A stretch of DNA of 64,000 nucleotides from an uncultured Luminiphilus sp. (lineage in GTDB: Bacteria; Pseudomonadota; Gammaproteobacteria; Pseudomonadales; Halieaceae), in assembly GCA_938091995.1 (NCBI GenBank), contig CALKNZ010000001.1, forward strand, positions 32,533-96,532. The letters run 5' to 3'. Each line of letters starts with the position of its first letter. Position 1 is the stretch's first letter. The position numbers and the translations under genes are program-made. This document shows positions 3,153-52,352 of the stretch, in pieces. Below the pieces are notes generated by a model. The model saw only the letters and a list, made by a program, of their open reading frames with translations. It was not told the origin of the DNA and made no database searches.

Positions 3153-4343
3153 TTACCAGCCCTGCTCAAGTGTTTGCACTATCCGTTGTGCAGCTTCAAC
3201 GCATGTTGCTTGTTCTGCGACCAGTGCCATGCGTATACGATTTGCTCCCGGATTTTCGCCATCGACCCATCGCCCTAGAAATTGTCCGGGAAGCACTGAA
3301 ACATTGCAGCGCCTCAATAATTCAGCAGCAAATTCTAAATCGTCAGTGGGCGTGCTTGGCCAGAGATAAAAGCCCGCGTCGGGAGTCGTGACGTCGAGTT
3401 GTTGAGCTAATAGGGGCACCACGGCTTCAAATTTGGCGCGGTACAGGGCTCGATTGGCTACGACGTGGGTTTCATCACTCCATGCAACGGTGCTTGCAAC
3501 CTGATGATGCGGTGGCATAGCACAGCCGTGATAGGTTCGGTAGCGCGTGAACTTTTGGATAATATCGGCGTCTCCAGCGACGAAACCTGACCGAAGCCCA
3601 GCCAGGTTGGAGCGCTTCGATAAGCTGTGAAAGCAGACGCATTTAGCGAAATCGGCATGCCCCATATTGGCTGCTGCAGATAAAAGCCCGGCAGGGGGAT
3701 TTTTCTCGTCAGGGTAAATTTCGCTGTAGCATTCATCGCTGACAATGACGAAATCATGCTCTTGAGCCAGAGCAATGAGGGTCCCTAAAGCCTCTTCTGA
3801 CATCACAGCACCCGATGGGTTGCCGGGATTGCAGAGGTACAGAACTTCGAGTCGCTCCCAGTCATCAGCAGCCACCTGGGAAAAATCCGGTTTAAATTCA
3901 CCGTGAGCATGGGCTGGAACAAAGGTAGGTTCGGTGCCTGCAAGCAGTGCTGCGCCCTCATAAATTTGGTAAAACGGGTTGGGGCTCATTACCCGTCCGG
4001 GTGCCCCGGGCGTGACTAAGGTCTGAGCAATCGCAAACAAAGCTTCTCGAGTGCCGTTCACAGGTAGCACCTGTCGGTCGGCATCAACATGTGGCAACTT
4101 AAACCGGTGTTCTAGCCACCGGGCAATGGTGGTTCTAAGTGTCGGTGACCCTGTGGTCGATGGGTAACGACTAATTTCGGGCAATGCCTGCATGAGTGCC
4201 TCTATAACTGCGCCCGGCGGGGCGTGCTGAGGCTCACCAATGGTCAGTGCTATTGGGGGGAAGTCTGCTGCAGTTATGCCATCAAATAATTGACTTAAGC
4301 GTTGAAACGGATAGGGCTGTAATGCTTCTAGGCCAGGGTTCAT
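3153..4343 (-). CDS. dapC: N-succinyldiaminopimelate aminotransferase
   Basis: Class I aminotransferase (SDECYSEIYPDEKNPP, SLSKRSNLAGLRSGFVAGD) in the dap cluster. Confidence 0.88.
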   Translation of the reverse strand: MNPGLEALQPYPFQRLSQLFDGITAADFPPIALTIGEPQHAPPGAVIEALMQALPEISRYPSTTGSPTLRTTIARWLEHRFKLPHVDADRQVLPVNGTREALFAIAQTLVTPGAPGRVMSPNPFYQIYEGAALLAGTEPTFVPAHAHGEFKPDFSQVAADDWERLEVLYLCNPGNPSGAVMSEEALGTLIALAQEHDFVIVSDECYSEIYPDEKNPPAGLLSAAANMGHADFAKCVCFHSLSKRSNLAGLRSGFVAGDADIIQKFTRYRTYHGCAMPPHHQVASTVAWSDETHVVANRALYRAKFEAVVPLLAQQLDVTTPDAGFYLWPSTPTDDLEFAAELLRRCNVSVLPGQFLGRWVDGENPGANRIRMALVAEQATCVEAAQRIVQTLEQGW

Positions 4344-6976
4344 AGTTGGCTTGGCAGTTCGGCATCCAGAGCGCGCTTGATGGCATCCTCTAGACGATTT
4401 AAGGCGTTTTCATCACCGATGCTGTTGCCATCGGTGCTGGTGACAAAAAACACATCCTCCACGCGCTCACCCAGGGTCTGAATTTTTGCAGCTTGAAGGG
4501 ATACATTTTGGTCTATGAACACTGCTCCAATATTGGCGAGAAGCCCCGGGCGGTCGGGCGTTGCGACTTCCAGTACGGTCCAGCCTCGTCGTTCATCTTG
4601 GTGCACTGAAGTTTCAGTGGGTATGACGAATGACTTTTGACGACGGGGTGTGTGTCGACTGACAGTTCGTATCTCTTTTCGTATCAGGGCTTCAGACAGT
4701 TTGTCGCGAATGCCCGATAAAGTGTGGTGATCCCCGGGGACTGGATTGCCATCGGCCTTGAGCACATAAAATGTATCTAAAGTCGCGCCATCACCCCCCG
4801 AGTAAATCCTAGCGTCGTTGACACTAAGGTCTAAAAATTCCAGCTGGGAGCAGATGCGGGCGAAGAGATCAGGGCTGTCGGGTGCATGAACAAAAATTTG
4901 GGTGGCGTTAGCCACGGTCGAGTCGCCGCTTTGCCTAACGAGCACCAGGGCTTGTTCCAAATTGCTGTGGTCGGCGATGGACTCGGTATGCCAGGCGATA
5001 TCATCCGGGCGCTCTCTCAGAAAATAATCATCGCCTCGAAGCGCCCAAATAGCCTCGATATCGGCCTTGATGAATCCTCTGTCCTCCAGCAATTCTAGGG
5101 CTGCCTGTCGCGTAGTATCGACCACGCTTTGGCGATCTACTGGGTTTTCAAGGCCGCGGGTTAGCGCTCGGCGCGTCTCCGTGTAGGTCTGACGCAAGAG
5201 CGTGCTGCGCCAAGCATTCCAGAGCTCGGGATTGGTGCCGTGAATATCGGCTACCGTTAGGGTATACAAATAATCCAGCCGCTCTTGCGTGGCCACGTGG
5301 TGGGCAAAGCGAGCTATTTCATCTGGATCGGAAATATCTTTCCGCTGGGAAAACGAGCTCATCAGCAGATGGTTTCGGACCAGCCACACGACCAAGTCCG
5401 TATCGGTTTTGTTCAGGTCGTGTCGTTCGCAAAATCCTTGTGCATCCACAGCACCCAGCTCGGAGTGGTCTCCCCCTCGACCTTTGCCAATATCGTGATA
5501 AAGAGCTGCAATGTAGAGCAACTCGGGGGCTCTAAGTCGCTGAGCGATGCGTGTTGAAACCGGGAATTTATCGGTGTAGTCGGCTCGCATGAAACGCCGC
5601 GTGTTGGCCAAAACTTCGAGTGTATGAGCCTCAACGGTATAGGCATGAAATAGGTCAAATTGCATTTGCCCTACAATACGTCCAAATTCTGGTAGATACC
5701 GGCCCAGCAAGCCATGTCTTGCCATGCGACGAAGCTGTAAGGTGACGCCGTGGGGAGACCGAATAAGTTCCATAAATAGCGCTTGATTGACAGGGTCGGC
5801 TCTAAATGGCGGATCGATAAGATCGTGAGCGGCTCTCAGTAAACGCCAGGTTCCTGGCGCAATGCCACTGATGTCTGAATTGTTGGCAAGTATGACGAAA
5901 ACCCGCAGTAAATTTGACGGTTCTCTAATGAAAATGTCGTCTTGTCTGGCGGAAAGTAACCCGCCAATGACCTCAAAGTCATCGCTAAGGAGCCGCGCTT
6001 TTTCTCGGTCATCGTTGTGTAAAATTTGTCGATCGAAGGCCTGCAATACCAATTCACGAAGCTGCGCTAGAGCCTGCGCCCAGCGATAATAAACCTGCAT
6101 AAATTGTTCGACGGCAAGCTTTTCACCGTCGACCATTTCCCACAGTTGGGAGAGCTTTTGCTGTTGCTCAAAAAGAAGTCGGTCTTCCTCGCGATCGTTA
6201 AGCATATGTAGGGCAAACCGAACCTGACCTATAAAGTTTTGACCGGCTTCTAGCATCCGTTGTTCATCGGTATTGAGAAAATCAGCTTCATTAAGCTCTT
6301 TTAAAGGGACATCGTAATGACGCTTGGCAATCCAGCCAATGACCTGAATATCTCGTAGGCCCCCGGGCCCATTTTTAACATGGGGTTCTAAATTACTTTC
6401 AGTGTTACCGAAGTGGTCGTGGCGAGACTCAGTTTCCTCAAGCTTCGCCGTGTAAAACGCTTTACTGTCCCACATTCGCTCCGGATCAATACGGCCTTTG
6501 AGTTGTGCAAACAGATCGTTGCTTCCCGCAACGCAGCGTGCTTCTAGCATCGAGGTAAAAATCGTGAGGTCCTCTCGCGCAAGGGCTTCACATTCCTCGA
6601 GAGTCCGAACACTCGACCCAACTTTGAGACCGATATCCCAAAGGTTTCTGAGCAGCTCTGAGATTTGAGCTGCGGTATCTTCCTCAGGCGGATGTGTGAC
6701 CAAAATGAGCAGGTCAATATCGGAGTGGGGATACAATTCACCGCGACCATACCCACCCACTGCGGCAAGGGCTAAATCTGGGCGTTGGTTCAGATGAATA
6801 CCCCAAAGATGCGTCAGCACGTTGTCGACCGCATTGGAGCGTGCGGACAGAAGTGGCCAGACCGGACTTGTGGGATGAAAGTTCCCCGCGATTTCTTCAG
6901 TGACCTGCGCGAGGTACCTCTGACAATCTTGAACAGGTTGGTCTGAATGGCTAATCGGGTTGGCCATGGATTGCAT
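4340..6976 (-). CDS. glnD: [Protein-PII] uridylyltransferase
   Basis: AAVGGYGRGELYPHSDIDLLIL nucleotidyltransferase motif, HD domain ALYHDIGKGRGGDHSELG, C-terminal ACT domains. Confidence 0.95.
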   Translation of the reverse strand: MQSMANPISHSDQPVQDCQRYLAQVTEEIAGNFHPTSPVWPLLSARSNAVDNVLTHLWGIHLNQRPDLALAAVGGYGRGELYPHSDIDLLILVTHPPEEDTAAQISELLRNLWDIGLKVGSSVRTLEECEALAREDLTIFTSMLEARCVAGSNDLFAQLKGRIDPERMWDSKAFYTAKLEETESRHDHFGNTESNLEPHVKNGPGGLRDIQVIGWIAKRHYDVPLKELNEADFLNTDEQRMLEAGQNFIGQVRFALHMLNDREEDRLLFEQQQKLSQLWEMVDGEKLAVEQFMQVYYRWAQALAQLRELVLQAFDRQILHNDDREKARLLSDDFEVIGGLLSARQDDIFIREPSNLLRVFVILANNSDISGIAPGTWRLLRAAHDLIDPPFRADPVNQALFMELIRSPHGVTLQLRRMARHGLLGRYLPEFGRIVGQMQFDLFHAYTVEAHTLEVLANTRRFMRADYTDKFPVSTRIAQRLRAPELLYIAALYHDIGKGRGGDHSELGAVDAQGFCERHDLNKTDTDLVVWLVRNHLLMSSFSQRKDISDPDEIARFAHHVATQERLDYLYTLTVADIHGTNPELWNAWRSTLLRQTYTETRRALTRGLENPVDRQSVVDTTRQAALELLEDRGFIKADIEAIWALRGDDYFLRERPDDIAWHTESIADHSNLEQALVLVRQSGDSTVANATQIFVHAPDSPDLFARICSQLEFLDLSVNDARIYSGGDGATLDTFYVLKADGNPVPGDHHTLSGIRDKLSEALIRKEIRTVSRHTPRRQKSFVIPTETSVHQDERRGWTVLEVATPDRPGLLANIGAVFIDQNVSLQAAKIQTLGERVEDVFFVTSTDGNSIGDENALNRLEDAIKRALDAELPSQL

Positions 6977-41801: not shown

Positions 41802-43862
41802 ATGACCTACCGCTTAGGTGTCGACGTTGGTGGCACATTTACTGACCTTATTCTTGTCAACGAATCGAGTGGAGATATCCACACCGCCAAGGTGCCGAGT
41901 ACTCCCGATGACTCATCCGTAGGCGTGATGAACGGTGTTGAACGTGTGTGTGCTAATGCCGGCATCGATCCTGCACAGATTTCTCAGGTCATGCACGGCA
42001 CGACGGTCGCCACTAATACGGTGCTCACCGGCTCGGGTTCAAAAGTGGGCCTGGTAACGACGCGGGGATACAAACAGGTACTGCAGATTGCGCGCTCCTA
42101 TGTTCCGGGAGGGCTGGGTGGCTGGGTGATTTACAACAAGAGCGACCCTCTGGCCCCTCTAGCCTGCACCATAGAAGCTGACGAGCGTATGGGTGCAGAC
42201 GGCAAGGCTGTCCGTGGCTTAGACACTAAAGCACTTGAAAAAGCGATGAAGCAGCTCAAAGAAGAAAATATTGAGGCGCTCACCGTGTCTTTGATCAACT
42301 CCTATGCTAATCCGAAACATGAAAAGGCGGTTGAGAGGGTGGCGCGCAAGGCCTTGCCGGGCGTACCGATTTCGCTGTCCTCTTCTGTAGTGCCAGAGAT
42401 GCAGGAGTACGAACGAACCATTACGACGGTTGCCAACTCTTACGTGCGTCCCAAGGTTGCTGAGTACGTCAAAAATCTTGAGAAAAAACTTAAGAAAGGC
42501 AACAAGAATATTCAGCTCAATATTCTCCGCTCTGACGGCGGTATGGCATCGGCTAAGTTAGCTCAGCAGCTGCCCGTTAACCTACTCATGAGTGGTCCTG
42601 CTGGTGGAGTTTCTGGTGCGGTTTGGGTGGCGAAACAAGCAGGATTTGAGAACCTCCTGACATTCGACATGGGCGGCACTTCCACCGATGTGGCCTTAGT
42701 GCAAGATGGTAAGGCGCACCTTCGCCGAGAAACAACGGTGGGAGATGTGACTGTGCGGGCCTCTTCGGTCGATGTGCGTACCGTTGGTGCCGGTGGTGGC
42801 TCTATTGCCCACGTGCCGGAGCTGACGGGAGCGTTGCGTGTTGGTCCGGAAAGCGCCGGTGCTCAGCCCGGCCCTGCTGCTTATAATAAAGGCGGGAACC
42901 TTCCTACCGTGACCGATGCTAACGTTGTGCTGGGGTACCTTCCCAGTGAAGTGCGCTTGGGTGGCGACATGGAAATACGCAAAGATTTGGCGGAGAAAGC
43001 GATCAAGCCGGTTGCCAAGGCTTTGGGAATATCAGTGAAGCGTGCGGCGGCAGGCATTATCGATATCGTCAATGAAAATATGTACGGCGCCTTGCGATTG
43101 GTTTCTGTAGAGCAGGGCTTTGACCCCAGAGACTTTGCACTTATTGGCTTTGGCGGTGCCGGTCCTCTCCACGCCAACGCTTTGGGACGATTAATGAATA
43201 GCTGGCCGGTGATCATTCCCCCCGGGCCCGGCGTACTGTGCGCTTATGGTGATGCAACAACACGAGTACGTGATGAGGCTTCACGGACATACATTCGACG
43301 ATTTGCCGACACGACAACAGCAGACCTCGCCAAGATCTACGAAGAGCTCGCGGCAAAGGCGCTAAAGACACTGGCGCAACAAGGTGTGCCGGCAAAAGAA
43401 TGCAGCGTTTCCTGTCAGGCCGATATTCGCTATCAGGGGCAGGGTTTGCAGCTGACAGTGGACTTTGATTTGAAGGCGCTCAAAAAAGGTGACCTCGCTA
43501 TTATTGGCGACCCCTTTGATGAAATGCACAAGCAACTGTTCACTTTCGCGCTAGAGTCGGACAAAGAAATCGTGAACTTAAGGGCTGTTGCCCAGGGTAA
43601 GAGCGCCGAAATAGAAGCGCGAAAGTTACCCAAGTCGGGCTCGCGGACGCCGGTAAACGCGGCGAAACTGGGCAAAACCACCGTGTTTATGGACGGCAAG
43701 GATATGGAAGCAACGCTTTATCAGCGGGACCAGCTCAAAGCAGGTAACAAAATAGAGGGGCCTGCAGTGGTACTCGAAATGGATTCCACAACGGTCATTC
43801 TTGCGGGTCACACCGGTAACGTCGACGAGTTCGGCAACATCTTGATTGCACCGACTGCATAA
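41802..43862 (+). CDS. hyuA: Hydantoinase/oxoprolinase family subunit A
   Basis: RLGVDVGGTFTDLILV; HGTTVATNTVLTGSGSKVGLVTTRG; GPAGGVSGAVWVA; FDMGGTSTDVAL. Confidence 0.92.
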   Translation: MTYRLGVDVGGTFTDLILVNESSGDIHTAKVPSTPDDSSVGVMNGVERVCANAGIDPAQISQVMHGTTVATNTVLTGSGSKVGLVTTRGYKQVLQIARSYVPGGLGGWVIYNKSDPLAPLACTIEADERMGADGKAVRGLDTKALEKAMKQLKEENIEALTVSLINSYANPKHEKAVERVARKALPGVPISLSSSVVPEMQEYERTITTVANSYVRPKVAEYVKNLEKKLKKGNKNIQLNILRSDGGMASAKLAQQLPVNLLMSGPAGGVSGAVWVAKQAGFENLLTFDMGGTSTDVALVQDGKAHLRRETTVGDVTVRASSVDVRTVGAGGGSIAHVPELTGALRVGPESAGAQPGPAAYNKGGNLPTVTDANVVLGYLPSEVRLGGDMEIRKDLAEKAIKPVAKALGISVKRAAAGIIDIVNENMYGALRLVSVEQGFDPRDFALIGFGGAGPLHANALGRLMNSWPVIIPPGPGVLCAYGDATTRVRDEASRTYIRRFADTTTADLAKIYEELAAKALKTLAQQGVPAKECSVSCQADIRYQGQGLQLTVDFDLKALKKGDLAIIGDPFDEMHKQLFTFALESDKEIVNLRAVAQGKSAEIEARKLPKSGSRTPVNAAKLGKTTVFMDGKDMEATLYQRDQLKAGNKIEGPAVVLEMDSTTVILAGHTGNVDEFGNILIAPTA

Positions 43863-43874
43863 GGGGGACGAAAA

Positions 43875-45953
43875 ATGCCTGCAACAATAGTAGAGACTAA
43901 CGAAGACAAGTTTTCCCTTATTGATATCGATCCTATTACCCTCGATATCATTGAAAACGCGATGATGAATGCTCGGTATGAGATGGATGCGGTGTTATTT
44001 CGCACGGCCATGTCACCGGGCATACGCGAGCAGCACGATGAGTTCCCCATGATTGCAAATCTTGAGGGAAAGATGGTCGTTGGACAGTTCGGTAGTTTTA
44101 TCCACGGCTTTAAGGAAGCTTATGACGGCACCATCGAAGAGGGCGATCTCTTTTTAACAACAGATCCTTACGCCTGTAATGGTGCGATTAGTCACATCAA
44201 CGATTGGTTGCTGCTGCGGCCGATTTTTAAAGATGGACGTTTAATAGCGTACGCCGCTATGTTCGGGCATATGACCGACGTTGGTGGCAAGGTTCCCGGC
44301 AGCCTGCCAACTGATGCGCGAGAAATCTTTGAGGAGGGTATCCGTATCCCTCCCACGAAGATCTATAAGAACGATGAGCTACAAACAGATTTACTGGAAC
44401 TCATTCTTCATAACTGCCGCATGCCTAACTGGAATCGCAGCGATTTCAACGCGCTCGTTGCAGCGATTCGGACGGCAGAGAAGCGCGTTATTGAAATGGC
44501 AGATCGCTTTGGTGACGACGTCTTTTATTCGGCGCTCGATGAGCTGCTCGCGCGAAATAAGCGGGCGATGGGCAAGCTGATTAAAAACACGGTGCCAGAA
44601 AAAAAGCAGTTTTTTGAAGACTATATTTGTGACGACGGTCTGGGTATGGGGCCTTATCGCATCAAGTGCGCCATGTGGCGTGAGAAAGATAAGGTTATTT
44701 TTGACTTTGAGGGTACTGACCCCCAGTCGATAAGCTCGATTAACTTTCTCTTGAATGAAGAAATGTTCAAGATGTTTTGCGGTGTTTATATGATCATGGT
44801 GTTTGATCCACAGATCATGTTTAACGACGGCTTCTATGACCTGATGGAGGTAAAAATACCCCATGGGACGTTGTTGAAGCCCGCAGAGCCGGCGGCCTTG
44901 TCCTGTAGGACACACGCTCTGGGTCGCATCTTTGACGTTCTGGGCGGGTTATTGGGGCAGGGTGATCCCGACTTCCTCGCCGGTGCGGGTTTCTCAGATA
45001 GTCCGCACTTTATGTACTCAGGCTACGATAAAAATGGCGAGTGGTATCAGCTGTACTCCATTGGTTTTGGCGGCGTTCCTGGGAAGCCTTCCGGTGACGG
45101 TCCCGATGGCCACTCACTGTGGCCAAGTTTCACAAACGTACCCAATGAATTTCTTGAGAGTTACTTCCCGCTGCGTATCGAGACCTACGAAACAATTACC
45201 GATAGCGGCGGCGCGGGCTACAACCGTGGTGGTAATGGTTTGCGCATGGGTTACTGCTTCTTGGAGCCCGGCACTATCTCAATCCACGACGATCGTTGGT
45301 TAACGTATCCTTGGGGGGTCAATGGTGGCGAGCCGGGAAGACGCTCAGAAAAAATTCTTGTGCGTGCTGACGGCTCTCCTCAAGAGCGCTTACCCAGCAA
45401 GTGTGATCGGATTGAAGTTGGGTCTGGAGATATTCTTTACTTCAATACTTGGGGTGGTGGTGGCTGCGGTGACCCGCTCAAGCGTGAGTTGGAACGCGTT
45501 GAGTTCGATGTGCGGGCAGGTCTGGTTTCGATCGAAGGGGCTAAACGGTATGGCGTTGTAATGACAGAGGATCGTCGTGTAAACGTAAAGCGCACAGAAA
45601 CCCTTAGAGCTCGTATGGCGAAGAAGCGCGGCAAAGTTCCGATGTTTGATCGCGGTGGTGACATTGCAACACTGAAAAAACGCTGCCTGAAAGAAACTGG
45701 TTTGGAGCCACCCCGTCAGCCTGAGTTCCAGGCCTGGGCGTTAAAATTGCTGGAAGGTGGCAAGGCGGAAGGTAGTGGTAGTGTGAAAGTCAGTCGATCT
45801 GCGAGTAAGAAGACGGCGAAGAAAACGGCAAAAAAGGCGGTGCCAAAGGCGAAGGTTAAGGCCAAGGCTAAGGTCAAGATCAAGATCAAGGCTAAGACAA
45901 AGGCTAAGGCCCCGGCCAAAACCAAGGTAAAAAAAGCAAAGAAAACGGCCTGA
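43875..45953 (+). CDS. hyuB: Hydantoinase B/oxoprolinase family subunit with Lys/Ala-rich C-terminal tail
   Basis: DPITLDIIENAMMNARYEMDAVLFRTAMSPGIREQHDEFPMI; GDPYACNGAISHINDW-like TDPYACNGAISHINDW; YNRGGNGLRMGY; WGGGGCGDPLKRE; tail VKVSRSASKKTAKKTAKKAVPKAKVKAKAK... Confidence 0.92.
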   Translation: MPATIVETNEDKFSLIDIDPITLDIIENAMMNARYEMDAVLFRTAMSPGIREQHDEFPMIANLEGKMVVGQFGSFIHGFKEAYDGTIEEGDLFLTTDPYACNGAISHINDWLLLRPIFKDGRLIAYAAMFGHMTDVGGKVPGSLPTDAREIFEEGIRIPPTKIYKNDELQTDLLELILHNCRMPNWNRSDFNALVAAIRTAEKRVIEMADRFGDDVFYSALDELLARNKRAMGKLIKNTVPEKKQFFEDYICDDGLGMGPYRIKCAMWREKDKVIFDFEGTDPQSISSINFLLNEEMFKMFCGVYMIMVFDPQIMFNDGFYDLMEVKIPHGTLLKPAEPAALSCRTHALGRIFDVLGGLLGQGDPDFLAGAGFSDSPHFMYSGYDKNGEWYQLYSIGFGGVPGKPSGDGPDGHSLWPSFTNVPNEFLESYFPLRIETYETITDSGGAGYNRGGNGLRMGYCFLEPGTISIHDDRWLTYPWGVNGGEPGRRSEKILVRADGSPQERLPSKCDRIEVGSGDILYFNTWGGGGCGDPLKRELERVEFDVRAGLVSIEGAKRYGVVMTEDRRVNVKRTETLRARMAKKRGKVPMFDRGGDIATLKKRCLKETGLEPPRQPEFQAWALKLLEGGKAEGSGSVKVSRSASKKTAKKTAKKAVPKAKVKAKAKVKIKIKAKTKAKAPAKTKVKKAKKTA
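45772..45950 (+). repeat. Low-complexity Lys/Ala/Val repeat tract in the hyuB 3' end
   Basis: Degenerate repeats of AAGGCxAAGG encoding KAKVKAKAKVKIKIKAKTKAKAPAKTKVKKAKKTA. Confidence 0.85.
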
Positions 45954-46009
45954 TATCTGAGCAACGGGGGGCACGAGCTCCCCGCATTTCGCGATGAAGG
46001 AGCCTGACC

Positions 46010-47068
46010 ATGAAGTTTGGTGTATTTCTGCCCAACGGCAGTAACGGTTACATTCCCTCTGCGGGGAGCCCGGTTTACCAGCCGAGCTACCAGCACAATC
46101 TCGATATATCTCTCGCAGCGGAAGCCCACGGATTGGACTTCGTCTTATCCATGATGAAGTTTCGAGGGTTTGGCGGGGAAACCGGTTATTGGGACAGTTG
46201 CTTAGAGTCCTTTACGCTTATGGCCGGCTTAGCGGCGGCCACTAAAAGTATTGGACTGTTTCCTTCAATATCAATTTTGAGTCAGCACCCGGCGGTAGTG
46301 GCGCGAATGGTGGCTACCATCGATGACATTAGTGGAGGACGCTGCGGACTTAATATTGTGACCGGCTGGAATCGTCCCGAGTATGCTCAGATGGGCATGT
46401 GGCCAGGGGATGAGCACTATCAGCGTCGTTATGATTACGCCGGGGAATATGTGCAGATCCTTCAGGCGCTATGGCGTGACGGACGAGCGTCCTGGGAAGG
46501 TGAATACTTTCAGCTGGATGACTGCTCGGTTTTACCGCAGCCCAAACGCGATATTCCACTGGTGTGTGCCGGACAGTCTCCTGCGGGGCGTGAGTTTGTC
46601 GCGCAATACGCTGACCATCAGTTCGTTTTGACCAGTGAAGACAACCTGGTTACTTCAGTGAAAGATATTCGAGCCAAGGCGGAGAGTACCGGACGTGATG
46701 TGGGAATCTACGCGCTGTTCCATCTGATTGTGGCCGATAGCGACGAACAGGCCCGAGCGGAAGTTGACAGGATTATCGACGGCGCGGATCACGGCGCGAT
46801 CAGCAACATCCTTGCCAGCGCTGATTTAGACACCAATACAGGCGGCACGGCGGATCAGCTTAAGGCGGCCCTCAACCAGAGCGTTGAGGCGGGTAATATG
46901 GCCTTTATGGGCATCCCGGTTATTTATGGCTCACCGGACACTGTGGTCAGACGAATCGAGGGTATTGTTGAACGTACGGGCATAGACGGGATGCTCTTTA
47001 GCTGGCCCGACTTTGTGGGAGGAATTGAGCGCTTCGGCTCCGAGGTGCTGCCTGCATTAAAGTTGTAA
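46010..47068 (+). CDS. RutA-like luciferase-family flavin monooxygenase (pyrimidine monooxygenase family)
   Basis: KFGVFLPNGSNGY...FVLSMMKFRGFGGETGYWDSCLESFTLMAGLAAATKSI...ARMVATIDDISGGRCGLNIVTGWNRPEYAQMGMWPGDEHYQRRYDYAGEYVQIL closely resembles E. coli RutA as recalled. Confidence 0.88.
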   Translation: MKFGVFLPNGSNGYIPSAGSPVYQPSYQHNLDISLAAEAHGLDFVLSMMKFRGFGGETGYWDSCLESFTLMAGLAAATKSIGLFPSISILSQHPAVVARMVATIDDISGGRCGLNIVTGWNRPEYAQMGMWPGDEHYQRRYDYAGEYVQILQALWRDGRASWEGEYFQLDDCSVLPQPKRDIPLVCAGQSPAGREFVAQYADHQFVLTSEDNLVTSVKDIRAKAESTGRDVGIYALFHLIVADSDEQARAEVDRIIDGADHGAISNILASADLDTNTGGTADQLKAALNQSVEAGNMAFMGIPVIYGSPDTVVRRIEGIVERTGIDGMLFSWPDFVGGIERFGSEVLPALKL

Positions 47069-49763: not shown

Positions 49764-52352
49764 TTAGAAGCTGTACTGCACTTCTACGCCAGCACGTCGC
49801 TGTGTGCCAGGGCTCACAAAACCGCCGCCAAACTCGGGGGCTAAAATCACCTCCGCGACAAACTGCTCATCGGTCAGGTTACGTGCGAAGGCCATAATGC
49901 TCCACTTCTCGCCGCGTAGACCGACACGCAGATTTGCCAGGCCGTATCCATCGACCTGTGTGCCACCTTGACCTGTCTCTGGATCCTGTCCGTAGTTCGC
50001 AGGTGGTCCGCCAAAGAGTGTCGCTGGAACCACATCGTCTTGCACGGTGTGGTACCAAGTGTCGCCTTGGTACGAATACTCAAGTCGGCTGAACAGCTCG
50101 AATCGACCCAATGGCAACGAGTACTGAATCGCCGCATTTGCCGTGAATTCGGGGTTGTTCGGTACGTCGTTGCCTGCTGTATAGGGCCTCAATGCGTTGA
50201 CATCGATCTCGCCGTCGACCATTGAGTAGCCTGCATCAAATCGCAGGTTATCGGTGATCGCCCAAGCCGCGCTAAGTTCAAAGCCTTGTAACGTTACTTC
50301 ATCAATGTTCTCAGCTGTTCGTAGCAAGCCGAAGGGGCCCACGAAGAACTCGAAGAACTGCATGTCGTCGACCTCGGTATGGAATACCGCTCCGTTCAGC
50401 TGCAAGTTTCCGTCCAGAAGTCCGGAGCGGAAGCCTAATTCGAAAGAGCTTGAGGTTTCCTCCCTAATAAGATCGGGCGGTGCTATTAAGGCGCCGCCGT
50501 TCTCAACGAGGTAGAAGTTGACGATTTGGCTCGCGCCGCTATTGTTGAAGCCACCCGCTTTAAAGCCCACGCCCCAACTGGTGTATAGGGTAGTGGCATC
50601 GGTAGCGTCCCAGGTCAGGCTGACTTTAGGCTGCAGTTGGTCAAAGGTTTCACTGTTACCCGGAATGCTGGAGCTCACCGTAAAGTCGTCGAAGTTTACG
50701 AAGCCGGGGTTCAGTGGTGAACCGCTCAGGGGTTGACCGTTTAAAGTACATTGCCCACCGCAGTAGTCGATATAGTTTGATAGAGCGCCATCTGCCGGTG
50801 AGGGCACGTTATTGGTGACATCCCGTTCTTCACGGTCGTAACGTAGTGCCACAGATAATTCCATGGCTTCGGTTAGGTCGTAGCTGATCGATCCGAAGGC
50901 TGCCATAACCGTTGTATCGAAGGTGTCATTCACCATTGCATCAGTGAACTGGTTGTAGATGGTGGTGGGTACATTGCTGGCAGGATTAGGCCAGTTCGAG
51001 CCATCATCTCGCAGTTGTGATACTGCCTGATACCGCTCGATATCGAGGTAATACAAACCGGCTTGCCAGCGCAATCGCTGATCCGAGTTGGATGTCAGCT
51101 GCACCTGAAAGCTCATGTCTTCTTGAAAACGCTCCTGGTATTGATAGCCGTCACAGGTAGTGGGGCTATAGGGTGGCAACACTTGTGCGCCAGGGGCTGA
51201 GCCAAAAATAAAGGTTGGGGCTGGCAGGGCGGTTACGCCGCCAGGTACCGATGGTGTGTATGAGGGGGTCAATGCATCTAGGGAATTGATACACGCCTCT
51301 GTGCCACCATAGAAGCCGAAAGCCCCGGATGTACCGTCTGCGATAAAGGTATCTTCAGTATCACTGTAGAAGCCCCAGGCAGTCAGTGTTGCCCAGTCCA
51401 TGTCCCAATCTGCCTTTACTGAAAACTCAAGAACGTCTTGCTCGTTAACCGGTCTCACGTTTCCTGCAAAGACAAATTCGTGGGTGTTGACGTTTTGATA
51501 AAAGGACTCAACTCCCGGGGTACCGAAGCCCAGAAATGGCGGTAACTCAAAGGCAGCGTTGAATGTAATGGCAGCGGCTTCTGACTTGCCGTAACGCAGC
51601 TTGGTGTCTATGGATAAATTATCTGTAGGGTCAAAGACCAATCGCCCCTGGACCGAGTAATTCTCAGCATCGTCAACGACGTTGTCATCGAGGAATGAGT
51701 TTCTGTAGAAACCATCTGTGCTTCGATAGTCAGCGGTCAAACGACCCGCTACCTTCTCACCCAGTGGTCCAGCAACGGTGGCAAGACCGGTGTAGGTGCT
51801 GTCTTCAGCCATACTGATACGTACATCGCCCTCGAACTCTTGAGAAGGGCGCTTCGTCGACATGATAATGGCGCCTGCAGCGGCTGAGCGACCGTACAAA
51901 GCACCTTGGGGCCCCTTGAGAATTTCAATTTGCTCAAGGTCTGCATATTCCCGGTTAAAGGCGTAGGTGTTGATGTAGAGAATGCCGTCAATAATGAGCG
52001 CAAAGTTGGTCTCTGCATCTCGCGCCCCGTTAATACCCCGAATCGACACTGAGGAATCACCGGTCTCGACCGTATTAACAAAGCTCACGCCGGGCGTCTG
52101 GGAAATAAAGTCCTCGGCACGCTGAATGCCCATGTCATTGATCTGTCCGGCGGTAAAAGCGGTCACCGTACTGGGTACGTCCTGCAGTGATTCACTTCGT
52201 GCTCGAGCAGTAACGACCACTTCCTCGAGTTGGGCGTGGGCAAAATTGGGTAACGCAAGGCCTCCACCGACGGTTGTCAGCGCGGCAAGCGCAATCGATA
52301 GGTTGGTTTTTACTGTTGCGGGTCTTTTCTGTAATGGACTTTTCATATCCAC
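49764..52352 (-). CDS. TonB-dependent outer membrane receptor
   Basis: Signal peptide; EEVVVTARARSESLQDVPSTVTAFT plug; LKGPQGALYGRSAAAGAI; C-terminal GVEVQYSF. Confidence 0.93.
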   Translation of the reverse strand: MDMKSPLQKRPATVKTNLSIALAALTTVGGGLALPNFAHAQLEEVVVTARARSESLQDVPSTVTAFTAGQINDMGIQRAEDFISQTPGVSFVNTVETGDSSVSIRGINGARDAETNFALIIDGILYINTYAFNREYADLEQIEILKGPQGALYGRSAAAGAIIMSTKRPSQEFEGDVRISMAEDSTYTGLATVAGPLGEKVAGRLTADYRSTDGFYRNSFLDDNVVDDAENYSVQGRLVFDPTDNLSIDTKLRYGKSEAAAITFNAAFELPPFLGFGTPGVESFYQNVNTHEFVFAGNVRPVNEQDVLEFSVKADWDMDWATLTAWGFYSDTEDTFIADGTSGAFGFYGGTEACINSLDALTPSYTPSVPGGVTALPAPTFIFGSAPGAQVLPPYSPTTCDGYQYQERFQEDMSFQVQLTSNSDQRLRWQAGLYYLDIERYQAVSQLRDDGSNWPNPASNVPTTIYNQFTDAMVNDTFDTTVMAAFGSISYDLTEAMELSVALRYDREERDVTNNVPSPADGALSNYIDYCGGQCTLNGQPLSGSPLNPGFVNFDDFTVSSSIPGNSETFDQLQPKVSLTWDATDATTLYTSWGVGFKAGGFNNSGASQIVNFYLVENGGALIAPPDLIREETSSSFELGFRSGLLDGNLQLNGAVFHTEVDDMQFFEFFVGPFGLLRTAENIDEVTLQGFELSAAWAITDNLRFDAGYSMVDGEIDVNALRPYTAGNDVPNNPEFTANAAIQYSLPLGRFELFSRLEYSYQGDTWYHTVQDDVVPATLFGGPPANYGQDPETGQGGTQVDGYGLANLRVGLRGEKWSIMAFARNLTDEQFVAEVILAPEFGGGFVSPGTQRRAGVEVQYSF

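Follow-up and report, generated by a model that had tools for sequence, protein, structure and literature searches.

Histone H1- and AlgP-like tails are usually discussed for DNA- and granule-binding proteins; why should such a tail stand at the end of a metabolic enzyme complex? The question is raised by a hydantoinase-like locus in the window, by which we mean the whole 64,000-nucleotide stretch of DNA analysed here, taken from contig 1 of a 2.88-Mb assembly (about 81% complete) of an uncultured Luminiphilus sp. On the plus strand lie a hyuA-like gene (41802-43862) for an ATP-dependent hydantoinase/oxoprolinase A subunit of 686 residues (Pfam PF05378/PF01968/PF19278) and a hyuB-like gene (43875-45953) for a Hydantoinase_B subunit of 692 residues (PF02538, E = 2e-141; fold matches 9h03_A, 5l9w_A and 6yra_B). 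The tail belongs to the second of these.

The HyuB tail and the enzyme that carries it

The preliminary description had placed a lysine/alanine tail at the HyuB C-terminus, and the end of the protein is as first read: the reading frame is continuous over 43875-45953 and closes with SKKTAKKTAKKAVPKAKVKAKAKVKIKIKAKTKAKAPAKTKVKKAKKTA*. The tail proper occupies about 45771-45950, starting past the last helix of the predicted structure (residues 620-627), and is dense in lysine and alanine from about 45804; translation places the polycationic stretch SKKTAKK...KKTA at residues 644-692 (45804-45950, plus strand). The last 60 residues of HyuB comprise 24 lysines, 13 alanines, one arginine and no aspartate or glutamate. 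Given that lysine makes up 6% of HyuA and of the HyuB core, the binomial probability of at least 24 lysines in 60 residues is about 2e-14. The tail carries a net charge of +25 and the core one of -20, and the tail raises the isoelectric point of HyuB from 5.2 to 8.4. Residues 630-692 (45762-45950, plus strand) are predicted to be disordered, with an AlphaFold2 pLDDT of about 30-34, whereas the domain before them scores about 90 or higher.

Each subunit is a full-length match to its Pfam families, HyuA to Hydantoinase A and HyuB to Hydantoinase B; HyuB scores 472 bits against PF02538 (gathering threshold 26.8) over profile positions 1-519 of 519. Its residues D55, H107, D110 and H132 align with D41, H99, D102 and H124, the Asp-His-Asp-His metal site of CapB (PMC8453981). 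As this site is present and invariant in 63 HyuB orthologues, and the predicted fold matches those of N-methylhydantoinase, caprolactamase CapB and acetophenone/acetone carboxylase subunits, the core looks active. The nearest NCBIfam models for both subunits are those of caprolactamase subunits, far under their equivalog cut-offs: HyuB reaches 218.8 bits against the CapB model NF050157 (cut-off 1000 bits), and 121 bits against that of the acetophenone carboxylase subunit ApcD, NF042976 (cut-off 1500 bits). Caprolactamase and N-methylhydantoinase are the nearest characterised families, with scores well below equivalog cut-offs where these exist, and the "carboxylase" part of the name first given to the subunit is not indicated. 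HyuAB is an otherwise ordinary ATP-dependent (lactam/hydantoin-type) hydrolase.

Directly 3' of hyuB, at 46010-47068, lies a luciferase-like monooxygenase gene whose nearest model is RutA (382 bits, below the cut-off of 498). The gene adjoins hyuAB in the window's clade and is placed elsewhere in some relatives; it could hold a clue to what HyuAB acts on. Between the two genes is a GC-rich hairpin without a T-run (45965-45983, plus strand; minimum free energy -27.2 kcal/mol and z -2.65 for 45945-46012), and similar inverted repeats seem, by eye, to be present between hyuB and the next gene in near relatives.

Tails among orthologues and on the partner subunit

From two scans we assembled 91 usable HyuB orthologues, including the window's own, and counted tail length after the conserved ETG..PP..P.F anchor. 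The length variation that the preliminary description had suggested looking for is ample: tails range from 0 to 73 residues and from net 0 to +25, the window's being the longest, and none of the 91 is net negative. The tail most frequently encountered is short and basic, of about 20 residues (for example KKAARKVA), and ends of this kind are found in more distant Gammaproteobacteria. Compared by HyuB, the window is closest to Luminiphilus and other Halieaceae genomes and to the isolate HTCC2080. Within the window's own clade (L032-L035, L051) the tails measure 44-57 residues, in a sister Halieaceae clade of about 90% identity (L037-L047) they measure 22-23, and long tails appear again in some distant Gammaproteobacteria (L077, L058, L063, L068). 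Five near relatives, HTCC2080 among them, have the tail in the same frame. The frameshift or assembly error that had been named as a possible source of the tail is ruled out by this shared frame, which includes an isolate, and by dN far below dS.

Among the six closest proteins, pS is 0.61-0.89 and pN 0.01-0.05 in the core, and pS is 0.53-0.97 and pN 0.07-0.32 in the tail. Amino-acid change is thus several times faster in the tail than in the core, and tail length varies freely. That the lysine/alanine content has survived near-saturated synonymous change argues for purifying selection on the composition of the tail. A composition driven by GC content was rejected, since GC and tail length are uncorrelated (rho 0.04).

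The main new result was obtained by examining the partner subunit as a control. The HyuA of the window has no K/A tail, and orthologous HyuA proteins of several other gammaproteobacterial lineages have one, of 40-125 residues and net +16 to +66: 125 residues (+66) in L074, 61 in L111, 56 in L107, 55 in L093, 50 in L085, L092 and L070, 45 in L098 and 40 in L105. A separate genome search found a HyuA K/A tail in L182 too. The tail of the L074 protein (3474-5931) is built of KKKVA-type repeats and is the longest of the set. The L107 record is titled Candidatus Planktophila lacus (Actinomycetota); because its HyuAB is nearly identical to that of the proteobacterial MAG L111, it is likely a mislabelled or contaminated bin.

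Where HyuA is tailed, HyuB has a short tail (+3 to +7), and where the HyuB tail is long, HyuA stops within a residue or two of its domain; at thresholds of net +8, +10, +12 and +15 alike, strong tails never occur on both subunits of one complex. At net +12, the tree of the cores requires at least three changes of state for HyuB and at least four for HyuA. With only three usable independent pairs once phylogeny is counted, too few for a phylogenetically independent test, the exclusivity is not statistically established, and we treat it as a pattern rather than a rule. Neither subunit is tailed in L064, L065, L069, L082, L071-L073, L075 and L087-L090, or in the more distant L003-L016; with several related complexes tail-less, the enzyme can do without the tail in many species. 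The view that such a tail is unusual on a hydantoinase subunit holds insofar as an H1/AlgP-like composition is found on a Hydantoinase_B protein; it does not hold as a peculiarity of HyuB, HyuA being tailed elsewhere.

The tails are also specific to this enzyme within its neighbourhoods. We scanned 689 open reading frames of at least 150 residues in 80 loci for C-termini rich in K/A and of net +11 or more, and found 17, all on HyuA or HyuB and none on the 539 other frames (Fisher P about 3e-12, a value inflated by relatedness). A general habit of the proteins in these genomes is therefore ruled out for the neighbourhoods of the 80 loci. For the window's own genome, the survey covered every contig with two pattern scans and, in addition, stretches totalling about 0.38 Mb, many picked for lysine-rich hits. 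The strongest other K/A-rich C-termini include those of an AlgP-like repeat protein, RNase R and topoisomerase I, and a HU-like protein has a K/A-rich N-terminal region (all named by reading the translations). A wax ester synthase/DGAT-like protein on contig C55 near 27460 (L128), identified in the same way, ends in the basic tail KPKTTTKRKTKVKAKPKNPQ and is a second metabolic enzyme with a basic tail in this genome. The regular KKAPAKKKAVA repeat of the AlgP-like protein reaches contig ends (C79, 65008-65345; C128, 13269-13618), and the assembler probably broke a single gene, or two copies, within this repeat. The DNA of the HyuB tail matches only itself in the genome, a search that short low-complexity DNA may escape; on this result a gene-conversion copy of the AlgP-like repeat was rejected. 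So was a PHA link of the phasin/PhaF type, as this genome, 81% complete, yields no match to a phasin family.

What the tail may do

From these observations, the HyuB tail is a genuine, selectively kept polycationic appendage of predicted disorder, for which polyanion tethering and assembly are possible roles. Our preferred reading, held tentatively and at a little under an even chance, is that the tail is a low-specificity tether of HyuAB to cellular polyanions. The +25 arm would bind ribosomes/RNA first and nucleoid DNA or polyphosphate next, binding would concentrate or slow the HyuAB complex at the polyanion surface, which may be the benefit, and the tail would take no part in catalysis. 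We prefer the tether because it would explain the disorder, the polycationic character, the tolerance of sequence and length change, the selection on composition, the placement on either subunit and the dispensability in some species. The binding capacities invoked have precedents: in E. coli, ribosomes are bound by +25 GFP (PMC5726854); polyphosphate is bound by the lysine-rich disordered part of E. coli YihI (PMC12345225); and the KPAA tail of AlgP binds DNA and is required for the spacing of polyphosphate granules (PMC9239181). We also count in favour of the tether that some of the other K/A-rich C-termini in the genome are polyanion-related (the AlgP-like protein, RNase R, topoisomerase I) and that a polyphosphate kinase gene is present in the genome. 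Against it we count the several related complexes that are tail-less on both subunits. The net charge of the whole HyuB is only about +5, so long-range attraction would be weaker than for +25 GFP.

A bolder version, possible but rather doubtful, is that of a portable localisation arm belonging to the complex: selection would favour one basic tail per HyuA-HyuB, on either subunit, repeatedly gained, lost and re-lodged, and the tail would anchor this catabolic ATP-dependent hydrolase at the ribosome/nucleoid or on polyphosphate granules. If true, marine bacteria would thereby control where a metabolic step takes place. The alternation of the tail between two subunits of one enzyme is in any case a natural experiment on polycationic tail function, and the HyuB tails of this near kin, at 0, about 20, about 50 and 73 residues, together with HyuA tails of up to 125, are ready-made variants for studying location, assembly and stability.

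The HyuB core being net negative, the tail could instead bind its own complex. It would then wrap the acidic surface of HyuA or of a second HyuAB dimer and stabilise the oligomer, a role to which the core charge of -20 would lend itself, which a tail on either subunit of one complex would serve, and for which the C-terminal arms of about 50 and 90 residues that bind the γ subunit in the homologous acetophenone/acetone carboxylase subunits (PMC8453981) offer a model. We consider this unlikely: the tails are of low complexity and predicted disorder, vary between 0 and 125 residues and share no conserved distal motif. Nor are they more basic on more acidic cores; the correlation has the opposite sign (rho +0.57, confounded by phylogeny), and simple charge compensation of an acidic core was rejected on the same value.

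The other of the two chief rivals, and quite improbable too, is an effect on expression or stability, in which a lysine-rich C-terminus protects the protein from degradation and raises its level, the HyuB tail being an exaggerated case. Lysine and arginine are enriched at bacterial C-termini and C-terminal lysine raises protein levels (PMC7246954), which fits the commonest, short basic state of HyuB and may be the ancestral reason for such ends. However, 50-125 residues are left unexplained, and a general effect does not account for strong tails that are confined to HyuA and HyuB and absent from all 539 neighbouring frames.

The codon repeats had been read as expansion by slippage, and for a part of the tail there is modest support. 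A (KX)11 tract at 45846-45911 (plus strand) uses AAG for all 11 lysines, and Tandem Repeats Finder detects in it 6/12/18-bp periodicity with 68-74% matches. Identity of synonymous codons in the tail at a lag of four residues exceeds that expected from the codon usage of the window's genes (P = 0.002) and from within-tail shuffles (P = 0.007), five lags having been tried. Near relatives have AAA and AAG mixed at the position of the tract, and the HyuB (KX)n run is the longest found in the genome, with 9 of 19 overlapping pattern hits. Most likely, then, the (KX)11 tract was added by recent duplication, and slippage or duplication may explain the recent lengthening in this genome but not the tail as such; the bulk of it is not recent slippage, because it has persisted while synonymous divergence came close to saturation. 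A neutral expansion of low-complexity sequence through replication slippage, tolerated beyond the folded domain, would account for these signs and for the great variation in tail length among close relatives. As an origin for the tail we find it very unlikely: the dN/dS pattern disfavours it, K/A richness being kept despite near-saturated synonymous sites, the same composition has appeared repeatedly, in different lineages and on HyuA as well as HyuB, and the tail is never acidic. Just as improbable is a membrane tether, in which the lysine-rich arm holds the enzyme to anionic phospholipids, which a polycation could bind, near where substrate enters: a TonB-dependent receptor-like frame lies nearby (49764-52352, named by reading its translation), its relatives recur near hyuAB at other Halieaceae loci and the wax ester synthase-like protein is also basic-tailed, but the arm has no amphipathic or hydrophobic anchoring residues except scattered valine and isoleucine, and outside the Luminiphilus relatives the tails persist in different neighbourhoods.

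Comparison with known systems

Caprolactamase CapAB of P. jessenii (6YRA) and N-methylhydantoinase (9H03/7HK5) have the HyuA plus HyuB architecture and the Hydantoinase_B fold of the window's enzyme, and CapB has the Asp-His-Asp-His metal site in common with HyuB. CapB, of 581 residues and about 28% identity, is alignable only as far as HyuB residue 575. The acetophenone and acetone carboxylases do have, as HyuB does, a C-terminal extension on the homologous subunit (Apc β, Ac α); theirs is an arm that binds the γ subunit (PMC8453981), whereas that of HyuB is low-complexity K/A sequence, and no γ subunit was identified for HyuAB. In the open literature we found no report of a hydantoinase with a lysine-rich tail, which is weak evidence of absence.

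Polyphosphate binding through a PASK motif, defined as a 20-residue window in which D/E/S/K make up 75% or more and lysine occurs at least once (PMC12345225), is not suggested by the tail, whose last 60 residues lack D/E and whose K/A/V/T windows are, by reading, well below 75% D/E/S/K. Closer parallels are AlgP, the histone H1-like protein of P. aeruginosa, and PhaF, both of which have a C-terminal region that is disordered, polycationic, rich in Lys and Ala, and variable in its number of repeats. In composition and predicted disorder the HyuB tail is of this type, and to that extent the likeness to H1 and AlgP first proposed stands; membership of the AlgP/H1 family does not follow, since AlgP carries 154 residues of regular KPAA repeats on an α-helical protein, whereas HyuB has irregular units (KX, KKTA, KAPAK), no regular KPAA-type array, and no demonstrated sequence kinship with AlgP or PhaF beyond composition. 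The AlgP-like protein of this genome, with its regular units, is separate from HyuB. Basic low-complexity lysine repeats are likewise described for the tails of actinobacterial topoisomerase I, of chlamydial Hc2 and of comparable proteins, with length polymorphism of the repeats in Hc2 (PMC2848022, PMC7398561); these proteins act on DNA, whereas the HyuB family acts on small molecules. The HyuB tail thus resembles the tails of H1 and AlgP in composition and probably in its physics, and membership of the AlgP, PhaF or H1 families is not part of that claim.
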